Of a stretch of 64,000 nucleotides of DNA, positions 27,145-52,378 are shown in pieces. Numbering within the stretch: position 1 is the stretch's first letter; every line of letters begins with the position of its first letter. This stretch comes from an uncultured Trueperaceae bacterium. Lineage in GTDB: Bacteria > Deinococcota > Deinococci > Deinococcales > Trueperaceae. The translations under genes were made by a program, and so were the position numbers. Under the pieces are notes generated by a model, which saw only the letters and a list, made by a program, of their open reading frames with translations, did not search any database and was not told the origin of the DNA. The stretch lies in the NCBI GenBank assembly GCA_937873495.1, contig CALMXZ010000016.1, positions 1 through 64,000 on the forward strand, read 5' to 3'.

Positions 27145-28644
27145 ATGCTCAAGTTCGTTCGTATATGGCTGGTACTCGTTGGTCTCGCAGCGAGCCTCGG
27201 CTTCGCCCAGAACCAGCTGGTGGTGGTACAAGGCACCGAACCACAGACGCTCGACCTGCAGTTCATCAACGCTCAGGTAGTTGTCAACATCGTCGATCAC
27301 ATCTCCGAGACACTCATCGACTACGACGAGCACATGACGCTCCTACCTCGACTTGCCACCTCGTGGGAGCAGCTCGAGCCGGACGTTTGGCGATTCCACC
27401 TACGCGAGAACGTCAAGTTTACAAACGGCGAGCCCTTCGACGCCTCACAGGTCGCGTTCAGCCTCGAGCGGGTCATGAACCCGACGAGCGGCTCCATGCG
27501 CCAGGGGCAGACTCGCTATATCGTCAAGATCGAGACCGTCGACGATCACACTATCGACATACACACGAACGGGGCCATACCGCTGTTCGACCAGTACATC
27601 GCCTCCTTCCCCATCGTCCCGCGTGGGTACGTCACCGAGGTGGGGGACGCCGAGTTCGCACTTCGGCCCGTCGGCACTGGTCCGTTCCAGCTCCAAGAGT
27701 GGGTGAAGGACGACCACATCACCCTCGTGCGCAACCCGAACTTCTGGGGTGAAGCACCGGCCCTCGACAGCATCGTCTTCCGCAGCGTTCCCGATACTGC
27801 AGCGCGCGTCGCCACGTTCCTGGCGGGCGAAGCGGACGTGGTCACCGACCTGCCCCCCACCGCCGTACCCCAGATTCAGTCCAGGTCCGGCCTGCAAGTG
27901 CACAGCCTGCCAAGCATGCGCATCATCTTCCTCTTGTTCAACACCGGCATCGAGTCCCCGGTTCAGAACAGGCTCGTACGCCAGGCCTTGAACTACGCGG
28001 TCGATAAGGAGGTGATTGTCGACTTCATCCTCGACGGCTACGGCAAGGTCCTAGATGGACAGGTGGTCAGCCAAGAGTACTGGGGCTACGACCCTGACAC
28101 GGCAGCGTATCCGTACGACCCCGAGAAGGCTCGCGAGTTGCTCGCCGAGGCTGGGTATCCAGACGGCTTCCACCTTAGGATCGTCTCCCCGCGCGGCCGG
28201 TACATGCTTGATGCCGAGATTGCGCAGGCCGTCGCCGGACAGTTGAGGGAAATCGGCATCGACACCGAAGTCAGCACGCTCGAATGGGGCGTCTTCTCAG
28301 ACGAGCAGTACTCCAAGCAGGGTGGACCCGTCTTTCTCCTGGGGTACCTAACCGATCCTGATGCCGCCAGCATGCTGTCGGTGTTCCGCTCCGACCACCC
28401 CAACGCGCAACATGCAGACGCTACACTAGACGGCCTCATCGACCAGGCGATCGCCGAGCAGGACGCCGATCGACGTCGCGAGCTGATTCATGAGGCCATC
28501 GCCTACTTCAAGGAAGACGCGCCGGTTATCTTCCTGCATCAGCAGGCAATCCTAACCGGGGTCAGCGATAGGGTCAGCGGCTTCACCATATTCCCCAACG
28601 GCCGCGTCAATGTAGCTAACGTCAGCATCGTAGACGGCAGGTAG
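27145..28644 (+). CDS. ABC importer substrate-binding protein, peptide/nickel (SBP_5) family
   Basis: A 499-residue periplasmic binding protein with a classic signal peptide cleaved near GFAQ. It has the family features: TEPQTLDLQF, SWEQLEPDVWRFHLRENVKFTNGEPFDA, then RQALNYAVDKE and a YDPEKARELLAEAGYPDG segment. AAGGAG lies just before the ATG. It opens an operon with TldD, TldE and two DppB/DppC-type permeases, so peptides or peptide-derived molecules are the likely cargo. A strong hairpin follows the stop and would favour higher expression of this gene than of those downstream. Confidence 0.92.
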   Translation: MLKFVRIWLVLVGLAASLGFAQNQLVVVQGTEPQTLDLQFINAQVVVNIVDHISETLIDYDEHMTLLPRLATSWEQLEPDVWRFHLRENVKFTNGEPFDASQVAFSLERVMNPTSGSMRQGQTRYIVKIETVDDHTIDIHTNGAIPLFDQYIASFPIVPRGYVTEVGDAEFALRPVGTGPFQLQEWVKDDHITLVRNPNFWGEAPALDSIVFRSVPDTAARVATFLAGEADVVTDLPPTAVPQIQSRSGLQVHSLPSMRIIFLLFNTGIESPVQNRLVRQALNYAVDKEVIVDFILDGYGKVLDGQVVSQEYWGYDPDTAAYPYDPEKARELLAEAGYPDGFHLRIVSPRGRYMLDAEIAQAVAGQLREIGIDTEVSTLEWGVFSDEQYSKQGGPVFLLGYLTDPDAASMLSVFRSDHPNAQHADATLDGLIDQAIAEQDADRRRELIHEAIAYFKEDAPVIFLHQQAILTGVSDRVSGFTIFPNGRVNVANVSIVDGR

Positions 28645-28746: not shown

Positions 28747-30183
28747 GTGTTCGACTCAGCTCAAGCCGCACTCGACCGCGCCCGGTCGCTCGGCGCGGAG
28801 TACGGCGAGGCGCGGTGGATGGAGACACGGGAACAGATCATCTCCGCCACGAACGGCAAGGTCGATGTGACTGAAAGCCACTCGGCTGGACTCGGCGTCA
28901 GGGTCTTGGTGGAAGGCCACTGGGGATTCGCGTCCCACGATCTCCTGAACCTCGATCCGACAGAAGTCGCAGAGCGAGCAGTACTGCTCGCTCGTGTGGA
29001 GGCGCGCGCCTCCAGGTTAGCGGAACTCTCCCCTCTCTCAACACGGGATGAGACGTATACCACCCACTGCGACGTCGACCCGTTCGACGTCCCGCTACCA
29101 CAGAAGACCGAACTCCTGGAGTCGATCCATAGAACCATGCTCGAGCGGTCGAGCTACGTGGTGGAGACGAGCCAACGCTTCGAATGCAGGCGTGAGCAAA
29201 CGCTCCTCCTAACAAGCGCAGGGACGAGCATCAGACAAACGGTCACGTTGACGGGCTTCAACTTCGGCGTCACGGTCGAGAAGGACGGCAAGCAGGCGGA
29301 TCGCTATTTTCCTTATCACAACGGCCATTACGCGGCTGGCGGTTTCGAGGTCATCGACCGCATGCAACCTATCGCAGCCGCCAGTCGCTGCGTAGATGAA
29401 GCTCTCGACCTGCTCTCGGCAGTACCGCTCCAGGAGGAAACCACCACGGTGATCCTCGACCCGACTATGGTCGGCACGGTTCTGCACGAGACCCTTGGTC
29501 ATCCCATCGAGTTGGACCGAGTGCTGGGAGACGAGAGCGACAATTTCGGCAGCAGCTTCCTGAAACAACGACATATGGGGCGGTTTACGTACGCCTCCCC
29601 CATCGTCAATGTGGTAGCGGACGGGACGCTCCCCGGCGGCGTGGGCTCTTACGGGTTCGACCACGAAGGCGTACCGGCTCAACGCGTCCAAATCGTGAAG
29701 GACGGTGTGTTCCAAGGGTTCCTGAGTTCGCGAGAGTCTGGACACTCCATCGGCGAGCAGAGCAACGGCTCAGCCAGGGCCAGTAGCTGGAACCGCATCC
29801 CAATGGTACGCATCACCAACCTCTTACTGGAGCCGGGCGATTCGTCGCTGGAGCGGATGATCGCCGAGACGCAAAGCGGGATCTACATAGAGACGTGGAA
29901 GGCGACCGACATCGATGACAAGCGGCTGAGCTTCAGCTTCATGGGAGAGCGTGGCTGGAGAATCCGGGATGGCAAGCTCACCGAACTCGTGAAGCATCCT
30001 GTCATCTACGGCGAGACGCCAACGTTCTGGAACACCTGCACCGCAATAGGCAATGCTTCCGAGTCGTTCCTGACGGGCATCCTGGGCTGCGGCAAGGGCC
30101 TGCCGTGGCAGTTCGTCGCCACCGGCCAAGGCGGTCCTCCGGCGCGGTTCGATGGCGTCAGGGTCGGGGGCGGACTCAGATGA
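28747..30183 (+). CDS. tldD: TldD-family metalloprotease
   Basis: A protein of about 478 residues. It carries the TldD zinc motif HETLGHPIELD (HExxxH type), a downstream GSYGFDHEGVPAQ segment, SSRESG and a GGPPARFDGVRVGGG C-terminus typical of the family. TldD pairs with TldE to form a protease that cuts unfolded or modified peptides; known jobs include processing microcin B17 and PqqA-like peptides. GGAGG precedes the start; GTG 28747 is preferred, TTG 28744 is possible. It sits between a peptide-type binding protein and its permeases, which suggests that it degrades the imported peptide. It overlaps tldE by 4 bases. Confidence 0.9.
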   Translation: MFDSAQAALDRARSLGAEYGEARWMETREQIISATNGKVDVTESHSAGLGVRVLVEGHWGFASHDLLNLDPTEVAERAVLLARVEARASRLAELSPLSTRDETYTTHCDVDPFDVPLPQKTELLESIHRTMLERSSYVVETSQRFECRREQTLLLTSAGTSIRQTVTLTGFNFGVTVEKDGKQADRYFPYHNGHYAAGGFEVIDRMQPIAAASRCVDEALDLLSAVPLQEETTTVILDPTMVGTVLHETLGHPIELDRVLGDESDNFGSSFLKQRHMGRFTYASPIVNVVADGTLPGGVGSYGFDHEGVPAQRVQIVKDGVFQGFLSSRESGHSIGEQSNGSARASSWNRIPMVRITNLLLEPGDSSLERMIAETQSGIYIETWKATDIDDKRLSFSFMGERGWRIRDGKLTELVKHPVIYGETPTFWNTCTAIGNASESFLTGILGCGKGLPWQFVATGQGGPPARFDGVRVGGGLR

Positions 30184-31604
30184 ACGGATTAGGTGCAATG
30201 AGAGAGCAGGCGGGCATAGCCAGCGAGGCGGTGGCACGCACGATAGCGATGAGCCCAGCCGATGCGACCTCCGCAACCGTCTTCTGCGAGCAAACGAGCC
30301 TAACCCGTATGGCTGGACTGAGTGTTCATCAGCATGTGTCCGAGGTCACGCGGCGCATCTACGTGAGGACCGTGTGGGAAGGACGCGAAGCCCACACGCA
30401 CGGGGACGATCTCACTGAAGCCGGGATCAAGCGTCTACTCCGGACGAGCGAGGCGGTTGCAGCCAGAGGTCGGAAGGCGACACTGCAAGATGATCTGGAG
30501 ACGTCTCGCGAGAGGAGTTCGACGGCGGCAGGCGCAACAGGAGCGGCGGTGAGTGAACAAGCCGCTGCCGACATCGCTGGCCTCTCCGACCGCGATAGGA
30601 CTCTGATGCTCCTGCAGATGCGGGATGTTTTCCGAAGATCCGGGACGAACGGCGCTGGCAACATCAAGCAGCAGTTGGCGACCTTGGCATACGGTGACAG
30701 CACAGGCACGCGGCGAGTCGCTAACTTCCCTAACCTCAGCGTCATAGCGGTGGCACTCGAACCGGCAGCCAACGCGTCCGGTTACCAGTGTTGGGCAGGC
30801 AGCGATCTTCAGGCTCTCGACATCCAGGCGATGGCCAGGAAAGCGGCAATCCGTTGCCTCCTCGGCAGGCACCCGAAGCCATTCGAGCCCGTCGCGTGGC
30901 CCGTCATCCTGGAGCCCGCTGCCGTCGCCCAGCTCTTGTTCCACCTCAACTTCCGGAGTCTTGGTCTGTTCGGTGCGAGCTCTGCGATCAGGAAACAGAA
31001 CATCGTCTACGACCACATCGGAGAATCGCTGACGTCGAAGATGGTTACGCTGACCGACGATACCTACGCTCCAGGTATGATCCGCGTCCCGTTCGACTAT
31101 GAAGGGCAAGACCGCGTCCACCTACCGATCGTTGAAGCTGGCGTCGCCCGGGGCATCGCGCACGACCTCTCCACGGCACGCGCTCTCGGCGCCACTTCGA
31201 CCGGACACGCGCTACCGAAGGGAGCGGGGACAGGGCCCACTCCGCAACACATTGTCATGGCAGCCGGTGACACACCCGCGGCTGACATCATCGCCACCAC
31301 AGAGCGCGGGATCCTGGTAAGCAGACTGCACGGTTTCGTCTCCCCGCTATCGGGCAAGCAGGGATTCTTGTCCGGTACGACGCGGGATGGCGTTTTCCTT
31401 GTGGAGAACGGCAAGATCACAACACCGATCCGCAATCTAAGGTGGCGCGACCGGATATTCGAAGCGTTCGGCAGAATCGATGCCGTTTCAATGGAACGGG
31501 AAATGCACTTCACGGACGAGCTGCCATTCCCGACGCAGACCTTGGTCCCGACAGTCCGCCTTAGCCGCTTCAATTTCGTCGACACGCAACGTTGGACGGA
31601 GTGA
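30180..31604 (+). CDS. TldE/PmbA-family protein, partner of TldD
   Basis: A 474-residue homologue of TldE/PmbA, the non-catalytic partner of TldD. It shares the fold but lacks the HExxH motif. Family segments are visible in the C-terminal third: TPQHIVMAAGDTP, TERGILVSRLHGFVSPLSGKQG and TTRDGVFLVENGKI, then RNLRWRDRIFEAFG. The start ATG at 30180 overlaps the TldD stop (ATGA), indicating coupled translation. Longer upstream frames run inside tldD and are rejected. With TldD it should form the dimeric or higher-order peptidase of this operon. Confidence 0.88.
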   Translation: MNGLGAMREQAGIASEAVARTIAMSPADATSATVFCEQTSLTRMAGLSVHQHVSEVTRRIYVRTVWEGREAHTHGDDLTEAGIKRLLRTSEAVAARGRKATLQDDLETSRERSSTAAGATGAAVSEQAAADIAGLSDRDRTLMLLQMRDVFRRSGTNGAGNIKQQLATLAYGDSTGTRRVANFPNLSVIAVALEPAANASGYQCWAGSDLQALDIQAMARKAAIRCLLGRHPKPFEPVAWPVILEPAAVAQLLFHLNFRSLGLFGASSAIRKQNIVYDHIGESLTSKMVTLTDDTYAPGMIRVPFDYEGQDRVHLPIVEAGVARGIAHDLSTARALGATSTGHALPKGAGTGPTPQHIVMAAGDTPAADIIATTERGILVSRLHGFVSPLSGKQGFLSGTTRDGVFLVENGKITTPIRNLRWRDRIFEAFGRIDAVSMEREMHFTDELPFPTQTLVPTVRLSRFNFVDTQRWTE

Positions 31605-31666: not shown

Positions 31667-32590
31667 GTGTTGATCGACTTCTTCGCAAGACGCATTGTGC
31701 AGTCCGTGCTCGTCCTGCTCGGGGTGGCGACCGTCGTGTTCGGCCTCATGCACTTGAGCGGGGACCCGGTTCGCCTGCTGGCTCCCATAGACACGACGAG
31801 CGAGGAGCTGGCCACTCTGCGCAAAGCGTACGGTCTGGACCGACCGCTCGTCGTCCAGTACTGGGACTTCCTGACCTCCGCAGCGCGAGGCGACTTCGGC
31901 ACGTCGCTTCGTAGCCGCCAGGACGCTCTACAGCTCGTGTTCGAGCGCCTCCCGGCGACACTGTACCTTTCGCTGGCCTCGCTCGGTATCGCTTTGCTTA
32001 CCGCAATCCCTCTCGGAGTAATCGCGGCCTTGAACCACAACACGTGGCGGGACCGCCTCGTCATGGGCGTTGCGCTGATCGGCCAGAGCATGCCGGTGTT
32101 CTGGTTGGGGATCCTCCTGATCATGGTGTTCGCCGTATGGCTGAATGTGCTGCCGGCAACAGGTACACGAGACGGCTGGCGCAGTTACGTGCTACCTGCG
32201 GTCACGCTTGGCCTCTACTCGATGGCCCGCACAGCAAGGTTTCTGCGAACAGAACTGCTCGACTCGCTCGGGCAGGACTACATTCGAACCGCCAAGGCGA
32301 AAGGCGCACGGCCAGCACGCGTGATTTGGCGCCACGCGCTCAGGAACGCGCTCATCCCTGTAGTCACGCTCATCGGCCTCGACCTCGCGGCTCTGCTCGC
32401 CGGTTCGGTTATCACCGAGACGATTTTCGCGTGGCCTGGGGTCGGTCGGCTCGCGATAAATGCCATCTACAACCGCGACTTCCCCGTGCTGCAAGCGTCA
32501 GTGATGGTCGTATCCACCATCTATGTGGTAGTCAACTTGATCGTCGATCTGCTTTACGGCGTGCTCGACCCCAGGATCGAGGTCACCTGA
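31667..32590 (+). CDS. ABC importer permease, DppB type
   Basis: A 307-residue inner-membrane permease with about six TM segments. It has the DppB-type N-terminus (RRIVQSVLVLLGVATVVFGLMHLSGDP) and the cytoplasmic EAA-type loop DYIRTAKAKGARPARVIWRHALRNALIP. The GTG start has a weak ribosome-binding site, and a TTG lies one codon later. Its stop overlaps the start of the DppC-type gene (TGATG). No ATPase gene accompanies the pair, so the ATP-binding subunits must come from elsewhere in the genome. Confidence 0.93.
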   Translation: MLIDFFARRIVQSVLVLLGVATVVFGLMHLSGDPVRLLAPIDTTSEELATLRKAYGLDRPLVVQYWDFLTSAARGDFGTSLRSRQDALQLVFERLPATLYLSLASLGIALLTAIPLGVIAALNHNTWRDRLVMGVALIGQSMPVFWLGILLIMVFAVWLNVLPATGTRDGWRSYVLPAVTLGLYSMARTARFLRTELLDSLGQDYIRTAKAKGARPARVIWRHALRNALIPVVTLIGLDLAALLAGSVITETIFAWPGVGRLAINAIYNRDFPVLQASVMVVSTIYVVVNLIVDLLYGVLDPRIEVT

Positions 32591-33420
32591 TGAGGGCGCT
32601 CCGTGGGGCCGACTGGTTAGTCAGGGCGTTCATCGTCGTGATCTTGGTCTTCGTCGTGTGCGCGGTGTTCGCGCCCCTCATTGCACCGTACCAGCCGGAC
32701 GCCCAGAACATCCGAATGCGGCTGTTGCCGCCTCTGAGCGCGGGTCACTGGCTTGGCACCGACCAACTAGGGCGAGACATTCTGTCCCGGATCGTCTTCG
32801 GGGCCCGCGTTTCCATGAAGATAGGGGCGTTGGCCGTCGCGCTGGCGTCGTTCGTGGGAGTCACGCTTGGTCTTTTGGCCGGCTACTTCGGCAAGCGAGC
32901 GGATGACATCATCTCATGGCTCGTCAACGTTCAGCTCTCGGTACCGTTCATCCTCCTCGCCATCTCCGTTGTCGCCGTACTTGGGCCGAGCGAGACGAAC
33001 CTAGTGATCGTTCTCGCGCTCGGGAGCTGGGCCAGTTATGCGAGAGTCATCAGGTCAAAGACGCTGAGCCTACGGAACCGGGAGCACATCGAGGCTGCGC
33101 GGGCACTTGGCTCGCGTACGGGCCGAATCCTGGTCCTGCACCTCCTGCCCAACATGCTGTCCGCCATAGTGGTGCTCTCCAGCTTTGAATTCGCCAAGAC
33201 CGTCATCGCCGAGGCCGCGCTCAGCTTCCTTGGCCTGGCCCCGAGTTCGCCGCGCTACTCCTCATGGGGGATCATGCTCGCGGAAGGGAAAGACTACCTC
33301 GCCGCGGGATGGTGGGTGGCTACCGTTCCTGGCCTAACCATCATGCTCCTAGTCCTCGCGACCAACGTCGTGGGGGACTGGTCTCGCGACCGGTTCGATC
33401 CCAGGGGAACCCGCCAATAG
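32590..33420 (+). CDS. ABC importer permease, DppC type
   Basis: A 276-residue permease, the partner of the preceding DppB-type protein. One N-terminal TM segment (FIVVILVFVVCAVFAPLIAPY) is followed by HWLGTDQLGRDILSRIVFGAR, the DppC hallmark, and the EAA loop HIEAARALGSRTGRILVLHLLPN. The ATG at 32590 overlaps the upstream stop. The frame is open much further upstream, but that part lies antiparallel in reading within the DppB gene and is not used. Confidence 0.93.
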   Translation: MRALRGADWLVRAFIVVILVFVVCAVFAPLIAPYQPDAQNIRMRLLPPLSAGHWLGTDQLGRDILSRIVFGARVSMKIGALAVALASFVGVTLGLLAGYFGKRADDIISWLVNVQLSVPFILLAISVVAVLGPSETNLVIVLALGSWASYARVIRSKTLSLRNREHIEAARALGSRTGRILVLHLLPNMLSAIVVLSSFEFAKTVIAEAALSFLGLAPSSPRYSSWGIMLAEGKDYLAAGWWVATVPGLTIMLLVLATNVVGDWSRDRFDPRGTRQ

Positions 33421-33433
33421 GAAGGACCATGGA

Positions 33434-34825
33434 ATGGCCACGTTGACAATCGCCTTACCTAGGCTCGAACTTGTCCATCCGAGCTACACGGCCGATCAGC
33501 CCGATTTGCAGACCCTACTGTCGGTCCTGTACGAACCGCTCTTGCGGTGGGAGAACGGCCACGTCGCTCCGGCAGCAATAGCCAGCTGGACCGCGCAAGA
33601 TGAAGGCCGTAGGTGGGAGCTGGTTCTTCGTGACGAGCTCCGGTTCACGGACGGCTCCGCCTGCACGGCGCACGACGTGCGCGCCGCCATCCTGGCGCTT
33701 CGGGACGCGGACGGGCCGTTTGGCATGGGCGGCGTGTACGCGCAGTACCTGCATGAGTTCGAACTCGTCGTCACGTCCCCGACACGGCTTACCCTGGCGT
33801 CAGAGCACTTCGCGGCCGATTACTTCGACCTCTTTCCCGCCATCTACCTGTCCAAGCCGGACCCCAACGGAGGCAAGCCTCTCGGCACCACCGGTTACCG
33901 ACTCGAGGAATACGTACCTAGACAACACCTGATAGTGAGCCGGACGGAACCGAGCCCAGCTTCCGAGGTCACAAGCGTCACCTTCATAGAGGTCGGGTCG
34001 GTCGATGAGCGGTTGAACCTGCTCAAGTCACACCGGTGTGATATCGCGACGGGTCTCGAGGAGCTGCCGAAGCGGCGCCTCACCGACGCAGGGGTGAGCA
34101 CTAGGGAGGTCCCCAACACCCTCTCCGTGACGATGCTACTCAACGGCTTCCGGGGGCCCTTCTCGGACCAAAGGGCCAGAATCGCGCTCAACCACGCTAT
34201 CGACGTTAACGAGCTAATCGACACCGTATGGCCGGACCGGGCCATACCGGCGCATACGGTCGTGAGCCCATATCACTACGGTTTCTCTACTGGCCTCGAG
34301 AGACTCGCGTTCGACCCGGACAGGGCGTTACGGCTCTTCCAGCAAGCCGAGGTGCGTGTGCCCATTCGGTTCAGGGCACCTATGGAGACACCCGACCGCG
34401 CACCCGAGATCGGCCGGAACCTCGTCGATCAGCTGGCGCGCCTTGGGGTGCCAGCCGAACTTGAGCTCGAACCCGACAGACCGAAGTACGCCAGGGAGGT
34501 GAGTGAGAAGAGGATCGCAGACGGCGCCATCTTCGACTCCAGCCCACTCAGCACATTCCGAATCCTCGTCGAGAAGGTGAGAAGCGATCCGCCGGGGCTG
34601 TGGTGGCAGGGTGTCCGCGACATGGAGGCCGACCGCCTCATCGCCGCAGCCCGGGCCAGCCCGACCGGCCCCCAGCGCCTCTCAGCGTATCAATCGTGTC
34701 TCCGGCATCTGTCGGTGGCACCGCCGTGGCTTTACCTGTTCCACCCGATCAAAGTCATGGGCCTGAGACATACGGCCCTTCCTGCGAGCCTCAGCCATGC
34801 AGGCGTGCTGGTACTCGAACCGTGA
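33434..34825 (+). CDS. Signal-less SBP_5-like protein (cytosolic binding-protein homologue)
   Basis: A 463-residue homologue of peptide-type substrate-binding proteins without any signal peptide. The N-terminus MATLTIALPRLELVHPSYTA starts directly in the first beta strand. SBP_5 features are present: LLSVLYEPLLRW, WELVLRDELRFTDGSACTAHDV and ALNHAIDVNELI, then AFDPDRALRLFQQA. ATG 33434 follows the permease stop by 13 bases, with GGAAGGA upstream. A cytosolic protein of this fold may sense or buffer the imported ligand, as the C-terminal domain of SgrR does for sugars. A similar signal-less homologue lies at 45746-47179. A mis-annotated N-terminus is unlikely, as the upstream space is too short for a signal sequence. 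Confidence 0.85.
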   Translation: MATLTIALPRLELVHPSYTADQPDLQTLLSVLYEPLLRWENGHVAPAAIASWTAQDEGRRWELVLRDELRFTDGSACTAHDVRAAILALRDADGPFGMGGVYAQYLHEFELVVTSPTRLTLASEHFAADYFDLFPAIYLSKPDPNGGKPLGTTGYRLEEYVPRQHLIVSRTEPSPASEVTSVTFIEVGSVDERLNLLKSHRCDIATGLEELPKRRLTDAGVSTREVPNTLSVTMLLNGFRGPFSDQRARIALNHAIDVNELIDTVWPDRAIPAHTVVSPYHYGFSTGLERLAFDPDRALRLFQQAEVRVPIRFRAPMETPDRAPEIGRNLVDQLARLGVPAELELEPDRPKYAREVSEKRIADGAIFDSSPLSTFRILVEKVRSDPPGLWWQGVRDMEADRLIAAARASPTGPQRLSAYQSCLRHLSVAPPWLYLFHPIKVMGLRHTALPASLSHAGVLVLEP

Positions 34826-34909
34826 ACACCACCCTCTACTCAGATGTTGCCGGGACCGAACCCGCGCTTCAACCCACAGCTAGCCGCCTCAAGAAAGGAC
34901 CGCGTTTAC

Positions 34910-35599
34910 ATGACGACCACTTCCTCACCAAACCTGGATCCCTCCGACATCCGCGACCGGTTCCTGCAGTTGAGCGCCGCTTTAATCTGCGACGCCTTCG
35001 ACGACCTCGGTGAGCCGGTGCCGGCGCTCCATGAGAGCCTTCGGCCCGTGAACGACGACCAGCCAACGCTCGCTGGCTGGGCATACACCATCGCAGGCCG
35101 TAGCGACGATCGTACGGGACCAGATCGCCTAAAGCTCGAGGTCGTCGACCAAGCCCCACCCGATTCAGTGACTGTCTGGGCAGGAAGCGATGCGCAGGGG
35201 ATCTGCCTGTTCGGAGACCTCATCGCCAGCACGCTCGTCTCCCGGGGCAGCAGGGGCGCCATCGTCTCCGGAGGCGTTCGCGACATCGACGCGATCAGAC
35301 AGCTTAGCTTCCCTGTCTTCGCTCGCTATGTCAGCCCGGTCCAGTCGATCGGGCGCTGGATCGTGACAAAGCATGCCGAACCCATCTATTTGCCGGGCGC
35401 GCTTGGGACCAAGGTCAAAGTAGCCCCAGGCGACTTCGTGTTCGGAGACCGAGACGGCTGTGTTGTTATCCCACGCGCGCTCATCATCTCCGTTCTCGAG
35501 ATAGCCGAGCGAACGTTGGCCACAGAGGCGAAGGCTCGCGAAGACGGCGCTGAGGGCTTGTCTGCCCTCGAGATGCTCGAGCGCTACGGGCACGTCTGA
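34910..35599 (+). CDS. RraA-like family protein (HMG/CHA aldolase fold)
   Basis: A 229-residue protein of the RraA/4-hydroxy-4-methyl-2-oxoglutarate aldolase family. Key segments are LICDAFDDLG, LAGWAYTI, then GDLIASTLVSRGSRGAIVSGGVRDIDAIR, the family's G...A...G..G...DG.VRD-type loop, and PGDFVFGDRDGCVVIPR. Members include metal-dependent aldolases and decarboxylases as well as the RNase E inhibitor RraA. In a catabolic operon an aldolase or oxaloacetate-decarboxylase-like role is more likely. The ATG at 34910 follows AAAGGA. Gene spacing suggests it belongs to the same transcript as the importer. Confidence 0.85.
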   Translation: MTTTSSPNLDPSDIRDRFLQLSAALICDAFDDLGEPVPALHESLRPVNDDQPTLAGWAYTIAGRSDDRTGPDRLKLEVVDQAPPDSVTVWAGSDAQGICLFGDLIASTLVSRGSRGAIVSGGVRDIDAIRQLSFPVFARYVSPVQSIGRWIVTKHAEPIYLPGALGTKVKVAPGDFVFGDRDGCVVIPRALIISVLEIAERTLATEAKAREDGAEGLSALEMLERYGHV

Positions 35600-42761: not shown

Positions 42762-43643
42762 CTAGATCGTCAACCCCACTCGCGAGATGATGGCCTCTAG
42801 CTCTGACACCGACTCGGGGTCCAGCTCCGGGCCTGGTGGGCGTACGTAAGAGCTCGCGAAAATGCCACGCTTCTTGTAAACGTGCTTCCGGAACGCTAGG
42901 CCAATCTTGGGTTGAAACTCGTACCGGATGAGTGGCATGTGCCGGTCGAAAACTCTGGCTGCGCCCACAACGTCCCCGGCAGAGAAGAGATCGAAGATCT
43001 CAAGCAGGACTTGAGGGAACGCGAACCCGGTCATAATCCCCTTCGCCCCCCTTTGGAGTTCTTCAAGGAAGTACTCTCCGCCTAGCCCACCGAATACACT
43101 CGTGTTAGGCGCCTTCTCTAAAATCTTCGTGAGCTTAGGCAGAACAGGCGGTTCCTCGAGCTTTATCCCGACGATCCCTTCTGTCTCGTTCACGAGGGTT
43201 GATATCAGCGTTGGAGAAAGCCGTACCGAGAACGCCTCCGGGAAGTCATGCACCATCACCGGGATCCTTGCGCTTCGAGCTATCTCGGCGAAGTAGTTGA
43301 ATATCGCCCTCTCGCCTTCAACGGCTATCGGTGCGACGAACACCGCGTCCGCCCCTAGCTCACGGGCCTCTGTGGCCTGTTCGATTGCGCCTGCAGTCCC
43401 CAGGGCCCGGACCCCTACCATCACGTCTAGGGCATCACCTGCTGAACGGACAACGGTCTCTATCACGGTCCTGCGCTCAAAGCTGGTGAGTTTGTGGGCC
43501 TCTCCCAAGAAGCCCAGAATCGCCACCCCTTGCACCCCTACCTCACGCATATAGGCTATCAACCGTTCCAGGCTTTCTTTGTCAAGCTCGCCATCATGCG
43601 TGAAGGGTGTTGGAAGGATGGGGAAAACACCGCGTAGATTCAT
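42762..43643 (-). CDS. DapA/NanA-family lyase (Schiff-base aldolase), altered active site
   Basis: A 293-residue TIM-barrel protein of the dihydrodipicolinate synthase/N-acetylneuraminate lyase family. It starts with MNLRGVFPILPTPF and has the GFLGEAHKLTSFER segment (family G..GE...L...ER) and the Schiff-base lysine motif IVGIKLEE. The catalytic Tyr normally found in a YN.P motif is replaced: the sequence here is VMVHDFPEAF, with His-Asp in place of Tyr-Asn. That predicts an altered reaction within the family rather than DHDPS activity. It overlaps the allantoinase-like gene by 4 bases (ATGA). Confidence 0.88.
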   Translation of the reverse strand: MNLRGVFPILPTPFTHDGELDKESLERLIAYMREVGVQGVAILGFLGEAHKLTSFERRTVIETVVRSAGDALDVMVGVRALGTAGAIEQATEARELGADAVFVAPIAVEGERAIFNYFAEIARSARIPVMVHDFPEAFSVRLSPTLISTLVNETEGIVGIKLEEPPVLPKLTKILEKAPNTSVFGGLGGEYFLEELQRGAKGIMTGFAFPQVLLEIFDLFSAGDVVGAARVFDRHMPLIRYEFQPKIGLAFRKHVYKKRGIFASSYVRPPGPELDPESVSELEAIISRVGLTI

Positions 43644-45043
43644 CGACTCTCCTCCACATCTGCCTTTCTCTCAGGCCCAGCGCTCGGTCTTACGAACCGT
43701 CCATGGCCCGGATCGCCCACGAGCTGTCCTTCATGGAAGACTCGTTTCCCACGGACGTAAGTTGACTTCACCTTCCCGGTAACCTGCATGCCTTCGAACG
43801 GGCTCCAGCCGACTTTCGTTTGCATATGTGCAGCAGAGACGCTCCACTCTTCTGCCGGATCGAAGATCACGATGTCCGCGTCGAGTCCTACCTGAATCCC
43901 GCCCTTATGCGCCAGCCCGAACGTTCGCGCCGGGCCACTTGCGAGAGCACGGACGAATGTCTTCATGCTGATCAGACCCTTGGACACACCCTCGCTATAG
44001 AGCAGCGGGCCGAGCGTCTCAACGCCAGGTAACCCGGCGTGGGCCGTGAAGATGTCTCCTGTGTCTTTCCGATTGAGCGGATATGGCGAATGGTCCGACG
44101 TCACAAAGTCAATCTCGCCGGCTTCTAGCATGGGCCAGAGCGACGCACAATCCTCGCTCGTTCGAAGCGGAGGGTTACATTTGGCCCGGCCCCCAAGACT
44201 TCTAAGTGCCTCTTGATTCAGCAAAAGGTAGTGGATGCAGGTCTCACCGGTCGCGTTCACCCCAAGGTCGCGGTTCCAGTTGATCAAGTGAAAGGTTCGC
44301 GGGATGGTTCCATGCACCATGTGCAGGCGGGCGCCCGTCCAATACGCGAACTCCAGCAAACGTCCCGCAGCTTCGGCCTCAGCAACCGGCGGCCTACTCA
44401 GTGCATGGGTCAGCGGGTCCGTCCCGCCGCTCGCGCCGAAACGCCGTTGCCAACCGTCCACTATTTCCTGGTTCTCTTGATGAGCAGCGACCGGAAGACC
44501 CGTCCTCGCGATCTCTTGGAAGGCTTCAACTAGGCGATCGTCCGTCAAGCGTGGGAACCGCCGCGGATCCACCTCTAGCGTCGAGACTTTGAAGCCGGCC
44601 GCCCCCGCATGCGCGAGCTCCCGGATGGAAGCAAGGTCGCCTCGCGGGGCTATCGTCGCATAGAGTGCGACATCCACGAGAGCCTCATTAGCCACATCAC
44701 TTGCCTTTTGCATCAAGTCAGCGGCAGTAAGTACCGGCCGGTCAGGAGCGTCAAACGGCATATCTATCACCGTAGTGACCCCGCCCGCGGCCGCTGCGTA
44801 TGTGGTTGCCGTAATGCCTTCATCAACGCTCGACCGCATATGCACGTGAGCGTCAACAAAACCCGGCAATAGGAGTCTGCCCGCTGCATCGTGCGTAGCC
44901 CTGGCACTTGGCTTACCCAAGCTTATGCCCACGATTTTGCCCTCATGAACCGATAACCAAGCGTCTTTCAGGACGTCGCCATTCGCATTCACAATGTTGC
45001 CGAAGATCGCTAGGTCGACCTCTGACGGAGCTTCTCGCATCAT
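43640..45043 (-). CDS. Allantoinase/hydantoinase-like amidohydrolase
   Basis: A 467-residue cyclic-amide hydrolase of the dihydroorotase/allantoinase/hydantoinase group. The binuclear metal site is visible: GFVDAHVHMR (HxH), AGFKVS (the Lys that is carboxylated), AAHQEN (His), MVHGT (His) and VTSDHSPYP (Asp). The N- and C-terminal beta-sandwich segments (DVLKDAWLSVHEGKI; GLDADIVIFDPAEEW) are also normal. It would open a lactam or ureide ring. It is coupled to the DapA-like gene and follows aroM by 13 bases, so ring opening and lyase steps may be consecutive. Confidence 0.9.
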   Translation of the reverse strand: MMREAPSEVDLAIFGNIVNANGDVLKDAWLSVHEGKIVGISLGKPSARATHDAAGRLLLPGFVDAHVHMRSSVDEGITATTYAAAAGGVTTVIDMPFDAPDRPVLTAADLMQKASDVANEALVDVALYATIAPRGDLASIRELAHAGAAGFKVSTLEVDPRRFPRLTDDRLVEAFQEIARTGLPVAAHQENQEIVDGWQRRFGASGGTDPLTHALSRPPVAEAEAAGRLLEFAYWTGARLHMVHGTIPRTFHLINWNRDLGVNATGETCIHYLLLNQEALRSLGGRAKCNPPLRTSEDCASLWPMLEAGEIDFVTSDHSPYPLNRKDTGDIFTAHAGLPGVETLGPLLYSEGVSKGLISMKTFVRALASGPARTFGLAHKGGIQVGLDADIVIFDPAEEWSVSAAHMQTKVGWSPFEGMQVTGKVKSTYVRGKRVFHEGQLVGDPGHGRFVRPSAGPERKADVEESR

Positions 45044-45056
45044 TCACCTACCCGAT

Positions 45057-45749
45057 CTATGTATCAGGACATTCACATGCGAACTGTGCTCTTAAAACGG
45101 CTGCCGCTAGATACCCAAGATCGATCACTGGAACTGTGAGCTTCCGAGCCAAGCGGTCCCGAAACGAGAGAGGATGACCAACGTAATCGATAACTACGGC
45201 ATCTACTTGGGGACCGGGGAGTAGAGCTTCATCTATCCATGGTTCCCCTACGCTCGACGGCGACTGTCGCCCAGACGAAACAACGTTCGCCACGAAACCA
45301 GCGTCCTCCCACTTCTCTCTTGACGGCCCTACCTGATCATCCACGGGAACGATCACGTGCAACGTGTTCATCCCGAGTTCGCGCAGGATGTCTCGCACGA
45401 TCTGGAAAGGCCGCACCAAGGGTCGGCGACTCTTCAATCCCTCGAAGGCGCCGGCGCAAAGCAGGACCGATGCGCTAACCGACTCTCGCTCGCACTCATC
45501 TAACGCCGACTGAAGAAGTGGAAGTAAGTATCCCTCACTGACCTCAACGCTAGTTCCGTCCCGAAGACGCGTCGTCAATGGATATGCGCTCGCTGGCCAT
45601 GCAACATCACCCACGTCATCGACGCCATCCAAAGCACCGCGTACTACTAGGTTAGTATTGGCAGGAAACCGGCCCAACACCTCAAGAAGGTCATCCCTGG
45701 GGGTTTGGCCGATCACCAGCACCCCGATTCTCCTCGAGACTGCGTTCAT
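45057..45749 (-). CDS. AroM family protein
   Basis: A 230-residue protein of the AroM family. The N-terminal IGVLVIGQTPRDDLLEVLG is the family hallmark, and the central CAGAFEGLKSRRPLVRP and the C-terminal DYVGHP..FRD.L fit. The biochemical function of AroM is not established; the fold resembles Asp/Glu/hydantoin racemases. The ATG at 45749 overlaps the upstream gene's stop (ATGA). In a block full of cyclic-amide hydrolases a racemase-like activity on an amino-acid derivative is a reasonable guess. Confidence 0.85.
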   Translation of the reverse strand: MNAVSRRIGVLVIGQTPRDDLLEVLGRFPANTNLVVRGALDGVDDVGDVAWPASAYPLTTRLRDGTSVEVSEGYLLPLLQSALDECERESVSASVLLCAGAFEGLKSRRPLVRPFQIVRDILRELGMNTLHVIVPVDDQVGPSREKWEDAGFVANVVSSGRQSPSSVGEPWIDEALLPGPQVDAVVIDYVGHPLSFRDRLARKLTVPVIDLGYLAAAVLRAQFACECPDT

Positions 45750-47179
45750 ATAGGGCTCACACATCCCTCGAAGCTCGCGCCCCAAAGCGCCTGACTGTCC
45801 CGACGAGCGCCAACCAGAACCGATGGGTTGTACAGAAAGAGCCAGGGGGCATCCTCACTAATGAGTCGGTATGCCCGCCGGTAGTGGTTCCGCCTAACAG
45901 TCGTATGCGGCTCGGCCTCAGCCTCCTCGATAGCTTGGTTAACGTTCGGGTTGTCGTACCCCAGCCACCACGGCCCCTTGACACCAGAGTGGAACTTCTC
46001 GCGTAGGGTCCGATGTGTACTTGCGGGGCTCGAGTCGAAGCAGGCTCCGTCATGGAGCTTTTTCGCACGAACCATCTCCGCGTATGCCGTTCGGTCGGCA
46101 TGAGCTGAGTAAGAGCACTCGATACCGATAGTGGCCAAGGTCTCCGCCATGCGTGCCACCATGGCTACGGCCTCATCCGGGTTATGCGTCGGAACATCCA
46201 ATGTTATCCGCAGGGGAGACTCCGGACTTGCTTCATCGAGCAGCCTGCGCGAGATGTCGGGCTGGAAGCCATATCCCGCCACGCCGCCATCGAACCCGAG
46301 GTGCCTTGAGGTGAGCGGACCGGCAATGGGTATAGCGGCGTCCGGCCCTAGGGTAGTAGTCACGAGACTTGGAACATCTACTCCGTAGTTCAGAGCTTGC
46401 CGAACTCTGGCGTCCAGTAGCGGCCCTTCCATTAGATCAAGCATGAACACCGTGCAAACCGGCGTTCTGACCCACGTAAGAGCCACGTCTTGGTCGGGAG
46501 CGATCCCATCTCGATCATCCGCAGCGAGTGCGACTGCTACGTCTACGCTTCCCTCGGTAAGAGCATCCAAACGCGCCGCGCTGGATGGCAAGGCCAGCCA
46601 TTCGACGGTTGTGACAATAGATGGTGCTCCCCAGTAGTTTGCATTTCTCTCGATGACAACGCGTTCCTCGCACACTTCGCAAAGTCGATACGGACCGGTA
46701 CCGACGAGCCGGACTCCCGCTTCTTCGATGTCATGGCGCTTGAGAATCGGGATCTCGGATACCACGTCGAGAAAGTCCGCGTTCGGCCGCTGCAACTCTA
46801 TGACGAGGCGTCCGGAGGCCACGACCTCGATCCGCGATTCTCGGAGGTAGCTTTGTATGACGCCAGTGGTTCCCAGCTCTCCCGTAATGTCACTATCGCG
46901 AATGCGCCTAAGCGAAACCGCACAGTCTTCAACCGTAAACGGCGTTCCGTCATGGAACCGCACACCTTCTCGAATGGCGAATGCCCAGGTTCTAGCGTCG
47001 GACGAGACGGACCACTTCGCGGCAAGGCACGCCTCGAAACCTCCTTCGCTCAGCCGCCGCACCAGCGGCTCGACCAGGGCACGTAAGATACCTAGCCTCT
47101 CGCGATTGTCACTCGTGACGTGCGGATCACCCACCTCAACGTGAGACTGGGCGATCGTCAGCCTGTGCCGAGACTCCAT
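45746..47179 (-). CDS. Signal-less SBP_5-like protein (second cytosolic homologue)
   Basis: A 477-residue SBP_5-fold protein lacking a signal peptide; it starts MESRHRLTIAQSHVEVGDPH. Recognisable segments are WAFAIREGVRFHDGTPFTVEDCAVSLRRI, VGTGPYRL, RNANYWG and VRQALNYGVD, all standard for the family. The upstream gene ends 3 bases before the ATG, so no signal sequence can be hidden. It lies between two hydrolase genes, away from the permeases. With the protein of 33434-34825 it makes two such proteins in one 31-kb region, and both end in similar APPWLYLF or APWLFLY-type segments. A ligand-sensing or carrier role inside the cell is inferred. Confidence 0.85.
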   Translation of the reverse strand: MESRHRLTIAQSHVEVGDPHVTSDNRERLGILRALVEPLVRRLSEGGFEACLAAKWSVSSDARTWAFAIREGVRFHDGTPFTVEDCAVSLRRIRDSDITGELGTTGVIQSYLRESRIEVVASGRLVIELQRPNADFLDVVSEIPILKRHDIEEAGVRLVGTGPYRLCEVCEERVVIERNANYWGAPSIVTTVEWLALPSSAARLDALTEGSVDVAVALAADDRDGIAPDQDVALTWVRTPVCTVFMLDLMEGPLLDARVRQALNYGVDVPSLVTTTLGPDAAIPIAGPLTSRHLGFDGGVAGYGFQPDISRRLLDEASPESPLRITLDVPTHNPDEAVAMVARMAETLATIGIECSYSAHADRTAYAEMVRAKKLHDGACFDSSPASTHRTLREKFHSGVKGPWWLGYDNPNVNQAIEEAEAEPHTTVRRNHYRRAYRLISEDAPWLFLYNPSVLVGARRDSQALWGASFEGCVSPI

Positions 47180-47182
47180 GGG

Positions 47183-48241
47183 TCAGCCTTCGGCCCGAGG
47201 AGCTTGGCTTTGACTATCCTGAGGGTTGGACTTGTCGTTGGTCTCGGGCAACGAAAGCAACCGCTCGGGGTTCGACTTGATCATCGTCCGAATCTCGTTC
47301 TCAGCCAGACCAAGATCCAACATGCACGCCACGAACTCTCGTAGGCCCTCGACCGGGCTCGGAAGCGTGTAAACACCGAAGTCCGTGGCAAGTATGCACT
47401 GATCGACACCAAGTTCTTGAATCTGCTCAGCCACGAGCTTAACGCCGCCCGATGGGGCATCGTCCATGCCTTCATCGATGGACATGTACTCGCGCTCAAC
47501 GTAATAGTGAGTCTTCGGAATCGGCGTCGTGTGCGTATAAGCAGCGAGGGTATACTCGATGAACGCACCCTTATCGGCCATCGCACGGAGCTCATCGAGC
47601 GTTGCAATCTTCGTTACCGAACTGGCAATGAGCACTTTGCGAATTCCGTATTCGCGACTGAGATCAACTAGGCGCATGGCCTCTGCAACGCTTACATGAC
47701 CTGTGTTGAGGTACGTCTGTGGGTGATCCGCGATAAGGCAAAGGATCTCGTCCAGTTCGGGGCTGGGCTTTGAGTCGATGGGAATTCGAATGCAGCGCTC
47801 GAGTTCCTCCGTCTTGAAACGCGGATACAGCTCGGACAGCGGCACGAACCTACCGTCCACAAGATGTCCCTCGCGTGACGCTTGAAAGTAGGTGGAGTGC
47901 GCACCGAAGCTTACATACTTCGCTCCAGTTCCATACTCCAGCGCAGTCCTTACCGCTCGTGGATTCATGCCCCCGTAGACGGTGTTGAGTATCAGACCAC
48001 CGAATGTCAGGAAGTCAGGCACGACCCGATTGACTATCCACGACGTGCCATTGCTCATCTCGAAGACGTCCATGAACACGATGGCCCGCATACCGGCGTC
48101 CCTTGCCTCCGTGGCCGCCTGCACCGGATCGACCCGCCTAGGACTACTGAAAATGTGCGGACCCGCATGAACGTGGATATCGACAGCGCCATGAAGCAGT
48201 TGCCGAGTCAACTCGAACGAGCGTCCATCAGGCAGTAACAT
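47183..48241 (-). CDS. Amidohydrolase-fold protein (DUF6282-like)
   Basis: A 352-residue putative metal-dependent hydrolase. The N-terminal metal motif LLHGAVDIHVHAGPH (HxH) is followed by EARDAGMRAIVFMD, a mid-protein His region (TYLNTGHVSVAEAMRL) and a late Asp (CILATDFG). This is the pattern of TIM-barrel amidohydrolases grouped as DUF6282. The ATG at 48241 has AAGGAG upstream; an earlier frame start is not supported. It overlaps the upstream amidohydrolase by 14 bases. The substrate is unknown. Confidence 0.75.
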   Translation of the reverse strand: MLLPDGRSFELTRQLLHGAVDIHVHAGPHIFSSPRRVDPVQAATEARDAGMRAIVFMDVFEMSNGTSWIVNRVVPDFLTFGGLILNTVYGGMNPRAVRTALEYGTGAKYVSFGAHSTYFQASREGHLVDGRFVPLSELYPRFKTEELERCIRIPIDSKPSPELDEILCLIADHPQTYLNTGHVSVAEAMRLVDLSREYGIRKVLIASSVTKIATLDELRAMADKGAFIEYTLAAYTHTTPIPKTHYYVEREYMSIDEGMDDAPSGGVKLVAEQIQELGVDQCILATDFGVYTLPSPVEGLREFVACMLDLGLAENEIRTMIKSNPERLLSLPETNDKSNPQDSQSQAPRAEG

Positions 48242-49487
48242 TGGTGGCTCCTTGCCGTGAGTTGGGTGTCGTCGTTCCAGCAACGATTCGGCCCCGCCGG
48301 AAGACAAGGTCGAGTTCGCGAAGGTTAGCTATGTCGTCGAGCGGGTTCTTCCTCAGGACGATCAAGTCGGCTTCCTTACCGACCTCGACCGTGCCGGTGT
48401 CCTCGAGGCAATCAGCGAGTTCGGCGCCATTGCGAGTCGCAGAGACTATCGCCTGCATCTCGGACATGCCCGCATTGACCATCGTTTCTATCTCTGGAAT
48501 CAAACGTTCCGCGAACGGCGTCAAGTCCTCGCCAGCAGCGATCTTCACACCAGCGGCCAGTGCGCGCTGAAAGCTCCTCCTGTGATTCTCCGCCGCGCGC
48601 AATGCCTTATCGATCGCAAAGGCAGACCAGTTCGCACGGATGTATTCCTCGTCTTGCGTCACTGCAAGCGTCGGCACGTAATAAGTGCCGTGCTCAACCA
48701 TCATCGCCACAACTTCGTCGTCCAACAAGTACCCGTGTTCGATACTAGCAACGCCCGCCTCGATCGCTAACCTCGCGCCCATTGGCCCACCAACATGGGC
48801 GCAGACCTTCCGGCCCTTCAGCGCCGCGACCTCGACGATCGCCCTTACTTCGTCCGGCGTCATTTGCGACTCATACATCGTTTCCGTAGACGAGGCGACG
48901 CCACCCGTGATCATGATTTTTATCTGGTCCGCCCCGCGCATCATCTGTTCCCGCGCCGCCCGCCTGCATTCCGCTACTCCGTCTACTTGAACACCCTTCC
49001 CGCTTTGCCAACCATGACCACCTGTAGCGATGATGGGGCGACCGCAGACGACCAACCGCGGCCCCTCGAACATCCCACTGTTAAAAGCCTTCTTCCAAGC
49101 CACATCAACGTAGTCGGCTTCCCCAACGACCCTGACGCTCGTGATGCCATACTGGAGCGCGTCCATTGCGGCACGGCCACACCGAACCGTCCGGTCCGCA
49201 GCAGCCTCATGATGAGGGGTCTTGGAGAAGTCGTTCTGTGGGAAGACCATTCCCAGGTGTGCATGGGAATCCCACAAGCCAGGTAGAAGGTACACGCCGG
49301 TGGCGTCGATTACCGGGGCTGCGGTATCCCGGACCCGACTGGAGCCGCGTTCGTCAACCCGCGCAATTCGCCCACGCTCGACCAACACGCCGCCAACCGC
49401 GTAAGGCTCACGGCCCGTACCATCGATCACGGTCGGGCCCAAGATGTACCACGTCGCATCAGGAGCCAACTGCGTCTGCTCAGACAT
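48228..49487 (-). CDS. Amidohydrolase (imidazolonepropionase/Xaa-Pro dipeptidase-like)
   Basis: A 419-residue cytosolic amidohydrolase. It has LLPGLWDSHAHLGM (HxH metal motif), MITGGVASSTE, ICAHV-type and SIEHGYLL histidine motifs, and a late AAGEDLTPF Asp. The C-terminal EVGKEADLIVLRKNPLDDI is typical of the group, which includes prolidase-like and imidazolonepropionase-like enzymes. It overlaps the M24 gene by 8 bases. It is a likely C-N bond hydrolase working with the neighbouring M24 protein. Confidence 0.88.
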   Translation of the reverse strand: MSEQTQLAPDATWYILGPTVIDGTGREPYAVGGVLVERGRIARVDERGSSRVRDTAAPVIDATGVYLLPGLWDSHAHLGMVFPQNDFSKTPHHEAAADRTVRCGRAAMDALQYGITSVRVVGEADYVDVAWKKAFNSGMFEGPRLVVCGRPIIATGGHGWQSGKGVQVDGVAECRRAAREQMMRGADQIKIMITGGVASSTETMYESQMTPDEVRAIVEVAALKGRKVCAHVGGPMGARLAIEAGVASIEHGYLLDDEVVAMMVEHGTYYVPTLAVTQDEEYIRANWSAFAIDKALRAAENHRRSFQRALAAGVKIAAGEDLTPFAERLIPEIETMVNAGMSEMQAIVSATRNGAELADCLEDTGTVEVGKEADLIVLRKNPLDDIANLRELDLVFRRGRIVAGTTTPNSRQGATNVTA

Positions 49488-50658
49488 GAACGGTCAGGCT
49501 CTCGATGTCCCGGGGGTACGTGGTTATGAACTCGAAGCCTTCCTCCGTCACGAGGACAGTGTCAGAGTGCCGAAAGCCGGCCACACCCGGCAAGAACAGA
49601 CAAGGCTCAACGCACAGAACCATACCCGGCTGCAGAAGTGTGTCATCGCCTTCGTCCAGGAAGGGCCCTTCGTGACCCTCAATGCCAATTCCATGGCCTA
49701 TGTGCGTCCTCGCTAGCTCCATGAGTCGCTCACGCTCGAGGAAAGTGTTGACTGCTCTCTCTACGTCGCCGCAACGCGCTCCGGGCTTGATCGCTGCGAG
49801 AGCAGCGTCCTGTGCCTGTACTTCCAGGTCAAAGTACTTGCGCTGCTGCTGGCTTGGCTCTCCCACGATCATCATTCGCTCCAGCTCGACCAGGTAGCCT
49901 CCGACAACGGGACCGCTTCCGGTAAGGATGACGTCACCGCGCTGCACGCGACGCCCGCCGGCCGACCGGTGATTGTGCGCTGTCTTTGGACCCGACGTGA
50001 ACGAGACCTTGGCGCCTGAGCCTTCCCAGGTCGGTCCCAACAAGTTCGCCATAGAAACCGTCGCCGCCGTGGTAGCACGCATTGAGATCTCGATCTCAGT
50101 CAAGCCGGGCTGTATCGCCTCGTGCAGGCACCCGTGGGCCAAGTCCGCGAGGCGCGCACTCATAGCCAGCAGGCGGAGTTCCTCCGGCGACTTCACCATT
50201 CTCCAGTCATCGATCACGTTCGCGATGTTAGTGAAGGAAGCCTGAGGAACCACATCGGGCAAGGAGGGTCCGCGATACCCCCATCCGCCACCCCAGTTGA
50301 GCGAGTCGACGGCGAGAGGCTTGTCGTCTAGGTGTAAAGAGACGAGCAGGTCCCTGAGGTGAAGCATCGGGTGCTTCTTCCCCGGATACTCTCGATAGAC
50401 CGCCACGTTAGTTATGTGGGGAGTCCGAACCGGAATGTTCTCCTCTTCCAAGAATGGGACCATGATTGCGACGTCGCCGTCGGCCGGCACCACTAGGACC
50501 ACAGGCCGCTCAGTCGGCAGGTGATGAAACCCGCTCAGATAGAAGGTTCTCATCGCCGCGAAAATGCAAGCACCGCTTTGGTTCGTCTCATGCAAGAACT
50601 CTTGCAGGCGATGAATGCGCCTCAGAATCTCAGGGGTTGAAATCGTGAAGGTACTCAA
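49480..50658 (-). CDS. M24-family protein (Xaa-Pro peptidase/creatinase-like) with altered metal ligands
   Basis: A 392-residue pita-bread-fold protein with a creatinase-type N-terminal domain (AAMRTFYLSGFHH) and an M24 catalytic domain. The His (GHGIGIEGHEGP), first Glu (LCVEPCLF) and final Glu region are present. In the strand that normally holds two metal-binding Asp (LVD.G....GY.SD.TR) the sequence is ILTGSGPVVGGYLVELERM, so the first Asp is lost and the second is Glu. That resembles metal-free members such as creatinase more than aminopeptidase P. It is the first gene after the binding-protein hairpin. Confidence 0.85.
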   Translation of the reverse strand: MSTFTISTPEILRRIHRLQEFLHETNQSGACIFAAMRTFYLSGFHHLPTERPVVLVVPADGDVAIMVPFLEEENIPVRTPHITNVAVYREYPGKKHPMLHLRDLLVSLHLDDKPLAVDSLNWGGGWGYRGPSLPDVVPQASFTNIANVIDDWRMVKSPEELRLLAMSARLADLAHGCLHEAIQPGLTEIEISMRATTAATVSMANLLGPTWEGSGAKVSFTSGPKTAHNHRSAGGRRVQRGDVILTGSGPVVGGYLVELERMMIVGEPSQQQRKYFDLEVQAQDAALAAIKPGARCGDVERAVNTFLERERLMELARTHIGHGIGIEGHEGPFLDEGDDTLLQPGMVLCVEPCLFLPGVAGFRHSDTVLVTEEGFEFITTYPRDIESLTVHV

Positions 50659-52304: not shown

Positions 52305-52378
52305 ATGACTCCTCTTCCGTTCAGGATTACTGAGCCTAGATGCAATAAGCTTTTAATGCGACAATCTTCACCTCCAAG

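Follow-up and report, generated by a model that had tools for sequence, protein, structure and literature searches.

NikA, GsiB, DppA and OppA are substrate-binding proteins (SBPs) of the SBP_bac_5 family (SBP_5, PF00496). SgrR combines an N-terminal winged-helix DNA-binding domain (HTH) with an SBP_5-like effector domain. AmiC, from the Pseudomonas amidase operon, is a cytosolic protein of the Peripla_BP_6 family that is encoded in an amide-catabolic operon and has the ANTAR antiterminator AmiR as its partner. Passages of PMC9602780 report that SBP Pfam models also match cytosolic single-domain proteins whose functions differ, citing AmiC-AmiR, and that about 1% of the retrieved proteins are predicted to be cytosolic; stand-alone cytosolic SBPs are thus already known as a kind. 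A sequence-only reading of the DNA studied here had held that an intracellular role was known for the SgrR effector domain but not, as far as its author knew, for stand-alone proteins, and the AmiC precedent in these passages weakens that point. In the literature that we searched, no paper was recognised as describing a stand-alone cytosolic SBP_5 family.

We analysed a stretch of 64,000 nucleotides from a Trueperaceae genome (the window), in which two signal-less SBP_5 proteins, P0001 and P0002, are encoded. The family to which they belong shares with NikA, GsiB, DppA and OppA the Pfam family, the full fold and a Dpp-type operon setting, but it has no signal peptide, forms its own clade and carries family-specific invariant residues, and its protein is not the sole SBP of its operon. 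It shares with SgrR an SBP_5-like domain in the cytosol; however, the identity to SgrR is 24% at best, and the SgrR model of NCBIfam was the weakest of the 11 matches of P0002 and did not match P0001. A stand-alone SBP fold without a signal peptide is common to AmiC and to P0001 and P0002. In a Pfam search at E up to 1, P0001 and P0002 matched SBP_bac_5 alone, with neither the HTH of SgrR nor the Peripla_BP_6 of AmiC.

Two signal-less SBP_5 proteins in the window

The two operons contain the following features.

Operon 1
27145-28644, + strand: secreted SBP_5 with a signal-like N-terminus, 62-63% identical to the same-place SBP of L138
28744-30183, + strand: TldD-type metallopeptidase (PmbA_TldD domains 1-3)
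30105-31604, + strand: PmbA/TldE-type protein, start possibly near 30180 (PmbA_TldD_3rd, 5.5e-40)
31667-32590, + strand: DppB-type permease
32593-33420, + strand: DppC-type permease, start inferred
33434-34825, + strand: P0001, signal-less SBP_5 protein, 463 aa (PF00496, 1.5e-35; 520 bits against the family profile)
34844-35599, + strand: RraA-like protein, downstream of P0001 (PF03737)

Operon 2
52379-54221, - strand: DppC and DppB permeases
50729-52345, - strand: secreted SBP_5
49480-50658, - strand: M24 (creatinase/prolidase-like) peptidase (PF00557, PF01321)
48228-49487, - strand: amidohydrolase (PF01979)
47183-48307, - strand: DUF6282 protein, immediately upstream of P0002 (PF19799)
45746-47179, - strand: P0002, signal-less SBP_5 protein, 477 aa (PF00496, 1.3e-49; 642 bits against the family profile)
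45057-45785, - strand: AroM-family protein, overlapping the end of P0002 (PF07302)
43640-45043, - strand: hydantoinase/dihydroorotase-like amidohydrolase, named through the profile of related operons (PF01979)
42762-43643, - strand: DHDPS-like aldolase, clustering with L140 12644-13588, a PF00701 match

The sequence-only reading had placed both genes among cytosolic enzymes. Enzyme genes do adjoin them, but each lies inside an importer operon that encodes its own secreted SBP. Both open reading frames were intact, as that reading had given them. The frame upstream of P0001 is open for 27 codons with no ATG, GTG or TTG among them, and the DppC stop (33418-33420) lies 13 bases before the ATG at 33434. 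In P0002, an in-frame stop is found one codon ahead of the ATG, which comes after the stop of the preceding gene. In both proteins, the sequence opens with the first strand of the mature SBP domain. Mis-started genes were ruled out, because neither frame has a start codon upstream and the relatives behave likewise; the claim of full-length folds with no signal peptide and no upstream room for one held for both proteins.

The SBP_bac_5 match spans most of the domain in P0001 (123.4 bits) and P0002 (169.7 bits; gathering score 32.4). The two proteins, diverged members of one family, are 32% identical (E 3e-65). The AlphaFold models had pLDDT values of 89.1 (P0001) and 91.8 (P0002), and their best Foldseek matches were 5u4o, YliB/GsiB and AapF, with query-normalised TM scores of 0.85-0.87 to 5u4o and 0.86 to 1uqw. 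A complete SBP_5 fold is predicted for both. The confident models and the retention of the family-invariant residues ruled out degenerate pseudogenes. The NikA, Opp and Dpp models of NCBIfam matched P0001 and P0002 far below every equivalog cut-off, and they also matched all 20 members of the family profile.

The 3.4 Mb genome of the window has a large SBP_5 repertoire, with 66 PF00496 places, and P0001 and P0002 are the weakest two full-length matches among them. Signal-like N-termini were called by a simple rule of our own (a start plus a hydrophobic core). By this rule, 59 of the 62 distinct SBP_5 frames of the genome had one, and the three without were P0001, P0002 and a stop-broken frame, L173; fragments, duplicates and at least one locus below the 60-bit profile cut-off (L180) account for the difference between 62 frames and 66 places. 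P0002 contains eight cysteines and P0001 three, while the mature parts of the 59 signal-bearing SBPs have a mean of 0.58 (median 0, maximum 6). The cysteine counts hint independently at a location that agrees with the absence of a signal. L173 (G000:C11:307600-310700) is an SBP_5 gene whose frame is interrupted by TGA. Elsewhere in the window, 3992-11926 (+ strand) is a single open frame of 2644 codons with a lipoprotein-like N-terminus.

Spread, export signal and phylogeny of the family

A family profile built from 20 members (A2) gave at least 437 bits for full-length family members and at most 322 bits for other SBP_5 proteins. The hosts were Trueperaceae, Chloroflexota, Bathyarchaeia, Alphaproteobacteria, Rhodothermales and Acidobacteriota/Aminicenantes. 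A member was present in 11 of the 151 genomes that share a class with a Bathyarchaeota genome (a 12th, matching at 240 bits, was not counted), in 13 of the 346 that share a class with a Caldilineaceae genome (a 14th, matching at 322 bits, was not counted) and in 6 of the 385 that share a class with Bosea. The phylum of an Aminicenantes genome had members in 2 of its 347 genomes, and the window's own taxonomic family in 6 of its 39, one of them a partial match at 330 bits (a seventh genome, at 284 bits, was not counted). The named loci number 29, including the non-family L086-L089. Fifteen further records, found later, lie on plasmids of cultured Alphaproteobacteria; the plasmid members scored 378 to 552 bits. 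We judged the weakly matching Micromonospora loci L086-L089, together with L118, L131 and L101 (240-322 bits, or E 1e-6 to 7e-4), to be ordinary SBP_5 proteins and excluded them from the counts. The branch of P0001 also holds members from Anaerolineae and Alphaproteobacteria, and P0002 represents a second branch.

Among the 58 members with readable N-termini, 53 had no signal peptide, one was ambiguous and four were lipoproteins. These 58 comprise 47 members (49 distinct frames minus the non-family L118 and L130, whose N-terminus is missing) and 11 plasmid members; the fragments L084 and L085 were also excluded. In the first 47, 42 were signal-less, L102 was ambiguous, and L063, L064 (identical to L103), L069 and L104, all from Aminicenantes or Acidobacteriota, were lipoproteins. 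All 11 plasmid members were signal-less (11 of the 15 records, with H5, H6, H12 and H13 left out). The stand-alone, signal-less state noted for the two window proteins therefore holds in nearly all of their relatives as well, and homologues are not routinely secreted.

Trees were built after near-identical rows had been removed. The family formed one clade against an outgroup of other, secreted SBP_5 proteins (support 100/100), and the four lipoprotein members formed one clade (100/100) nested in a mostly signal-less group (93/97). Since the signal state needs two changes on the tree rooted with the secreted SBPs, the family reads, with this root, as having lost its export signal once at its base and regained it once later, a clean case of a fold losing and then regaining export. 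The secreted partners branch outside the clade of the family, which ruled out duplication of the secreted SBP of the same operon as the origin of P0001 and P0002. When E. coli references were added, the support of the family branch fell to 72/81, because SgrR adjoins on a branch of length 5. One branch (95/91) grouped SgrR with the family, but the terminal branch of SgrR itself measured 5 changes per column. The phylogeny proposed in the sequence-only reading set the family apart from secreted SBP_5 proteins, with SgrR only loosely placed.

The exported L064 adjoins a lipoprotein amidohydrolase (L064 8074-9765), and the exported L104 adjoins a lipoprotein M24 peptidase (seen in L148, 1695-3266). 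No exported hydrolase was found beside the other two of the four exported members, L063 and L069.

Operon neighbourhoods

We surveyed the neighbours of 52 members. A DppC gene of the same orientation lay no more than 9.5 kb away from 30 of them, so that many members sit in Dpp-type importer operons; a separate SBP was present in the same operon at 23, and a VOC gene near 20. As background, 301 kb taken mainly from the genome of the window gave 0 VOC genes, and the aligned VOC proteins were 28-59% identical to the first one, archaea included. No VOC gene was found in the window's genome at E 1e-8, in a search without a positive control there; a VOC neighbour is not obligatory for the family. 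This VOC subfamily was seen near the family at L070, L074, L144, L149 and L185-L195, from Bathyarchaeia to Alphaproteobacteria.

Three layouts were distinguished. Layout A (Sulfitobacter, Labrenzia) consists of GntR, VOC, secreted SBP, DppB, DppC, DppD, DppF, the family protein, amidohydrolase, Asp/Glu racemase, DHDPS and SDR, and a variant in Microvirga and Ensifer has the racemase and a hydantoinase upstream instead. In cultured Alphaproteobacteria, where the importer comes with an SBP of its own, the start codon of the family gene overlaps the DppF stop or directly adjoins it. Layout B reads secreted SBP, DppB, DppC, family protein, VOC and a SUMF1/EgtB-like protein at seven alphaproteobacterial loci, and secreted SBP, TldD, PmbA, DppB, DppC and family protein in the window (P0001) and at Anaerolineae L133, L138 and L202; at six more Anaerolineae loci, DppC was the only one kept upstream in the neighbour survey. 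Layout C, that of P0002 in the window, comprises Dpp permeases, secreted SBP, M24, amidohydrolase, DUF6282, the family protein, AroM, hydantoinase and DHDPS, and was found in parts in Rhodothermales L062 and Truepera L198. The SUMF1/EgtB-like (FGE-sulfatase) protein follows VOC in P0001-type alphaproteobacterial operons (L189 6526-8685, L191 8768-10537), and one copy of this type has an AAA/NACHT-like N-terminal part.

In Bathyarchaeia, the family gene follows rpl10 and a LigD-type gene, or an MFS gene; rpl10 and the ribosomal neighbours are what we take these genes to be from their sequences. At the rpl10-type loci, VOC is often found downstream on the opposite strand. No Dpp/Opp permease genes were found near the Bathyarchaeia members in the surveyed loci. 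In G064, the family gene is the sole PF00496 match and no OppC_N match was found in this MAG, which may be incomplete. OppC_N was also not found in the MAGs G062 and G063, hosts of exported members.

Constant residues and candidate roles

We compared invariant columns in the family and in secreted SBPs. Random sets of 32 family members had 21.6 invariant columns on average (10.6 polar, 7.4 charged), and 31 secreted SBPs with the same mean identity of 0.38 had 9 (2 polar, 2 charged), so that invariant polar residues in the family are about five times those of equally diverged secreted SBPs; the control brings together paralogues that differ in their ligands, so that its count is lowered, and the excess therefore indicates one function rather than an enzyme. 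Many of the invariant residues lie in one motif, FDSSPxSTxR..EK..S...G.WW.G. All 30 A2-invariant residues are present in P0001 and in the exported L064, they are mostly absent from nine secreted partner SBPs, and L138 deviates at 4 of the 30 positions. The family-specific residues are alike from archaea to Alphaproteobacteria, while the adjoining secreted SBPs belong to different clades without them. The family site thus looks constant while the importers change, because its invariant polar residues far outnumber those of equally diverged secreted SBPs. A passage of PMC3295651 describes a salt bridge between Asp408 of DppA and the ligand amine; D382 of P0002 aligns with D408 of DppA by profile alignment and with N409 by MAFFT, a shift of one residue.

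Our leading reading, tentative and at somewhat under even chances, is an intracellular SBP_5 family that lost its signal once, long ago, and acts as the binding partner of a conserved metabolite. The protein would still close on a small ligand, putatively a common intracellular metabolite of these breakdown pathways and not the cargo of the neighbouring importer. This metabolite may be held for the adjacent enzymes, namely amidohydrolases, hydantoinase, Asp/Glu racemase or AroM, DHDPS-like aldolase, M24 or TldD/E peptidases and the VOC protein. The protein would be distinct from the SBP of the importer, for which a secreted SBP is usually encoded separately. In Acidobacteriota/Aminicenantes, it would have been exported once more; two of the four cases have an exported hydrolase next to them, which fits a protein staying with its pathway enzymes. 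Against this reading, the family protein evolves faster than its importer (45-56% identity, against 56-76% for the importer), a VOC neighbour is not obligatory, and the other two exported members show no exported hydrolase beside them. The sequence-only reading had proposed a sensor or a carrier for the imported molecule; its premise of full-length, stand-alone, signal-less proteins stood, but both roles came out weakened. The picture of a carrier for the imported molecule is weak, because the protein differs from the SBP of the importer and has a site that does not vary with the importer: the site is constant while the neighbouring SBPs differ, and Bathyarchaeia have no nearby Dpp/Opp permeases.

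We prefer a binding partner to an enzyme on the SBP_5 fold, a somewhat less likely reading and the main rival, in which the closed cleft would perform one step of the breakdown pathway. Enzymes on the PBP fold are known (MqnA/MqnD, Thi5). At a mean identity of 38%, the number of invariant residues that are charged or polar is high, with many of them in one motif, and these residues would equally fit a catalytic site. The family gene is located among catabolic enzymes in many bacterial loci, and the protein is portable between compartments, as the lipoprotein members indicate, and unbound to one importer type. However, no known enzyme's catalytic motif was recognised, and the profile matches were confined to SBP families and a single phage-library family of unknown function. 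The family protein also evolves faster than the aldolase of the same operon and slightly faster than its amidohydrolase. The fuller version of this reading, an ancient catalytic SBP_5-fold family that moved indoors, kept one conserved site from Bathyarchaeia to Alphaproteobacteria and was re-exported once with its pathway partners in Acidobacteriota, we rate at about one chance in four. The conserved operon in cultured Alphaproteobacteria lays the ligand or the reaction open to direct test.

An AmiC-like intracellular sensor would bind the imported compound or its product and switch a regulator or antiterminator. Such stand-alone cytosolic SBP-fold sensors exist (AmiC, cited in a passage of PMC9602780), several members have a GntR gene nearby, and the window contains both GntR and IclR genes. 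Nevertheless, no regulator gene was a constant neighbour across the 52 surveyed members, and GntR was not found near the surveyed P0001-type Anaerolineae or Bathyarchaeia loci. GntR-FCD and IclR proteins bear effector domains of their own. The ANTAR partner of AmiC likewise has no counterpart at the family loci: ANTAR proteins gave 0 matches in the window's genome and 5 in 15 genomes or records, none at a family gene. Because no regulator is constant and four members are exported, among them L064 with its invariant residues kept, we consider a sensor improbable.

The family gene comes directly after dppC or dppF in many importer-linked loci, as would suit a cytosolic gate that binds DppB/DppC from the inside and modulates uptake. 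We give this very little weight: the Bathyarchaeia members lie beside ribosomal-protein or MFS genes, G064 shows no OppC_N, and a gate is impossible for the exported clade. A second importer SBP, exported without a classical signal or mis-annotated at its start, has the fold and operon position in its favour but is hardly credible against 53 of 58 signal-less members, several with overlapping or abutting genes, the eight and three cysteines of P0002 and P0001, where the secreted SBPs of this genome have a median of 0, and a separate SBP in the operon at 23 of 52 loci. The automatic label "ABC transporter substrate-binding protein" is attached to the family in Sulfitobacter, Labrenzia, Microvirga, Terrarubrum and Alloyangia, and under such a label an intracellular protein whose site is fixed can go unnoticed in operons that also encode a true SBP.
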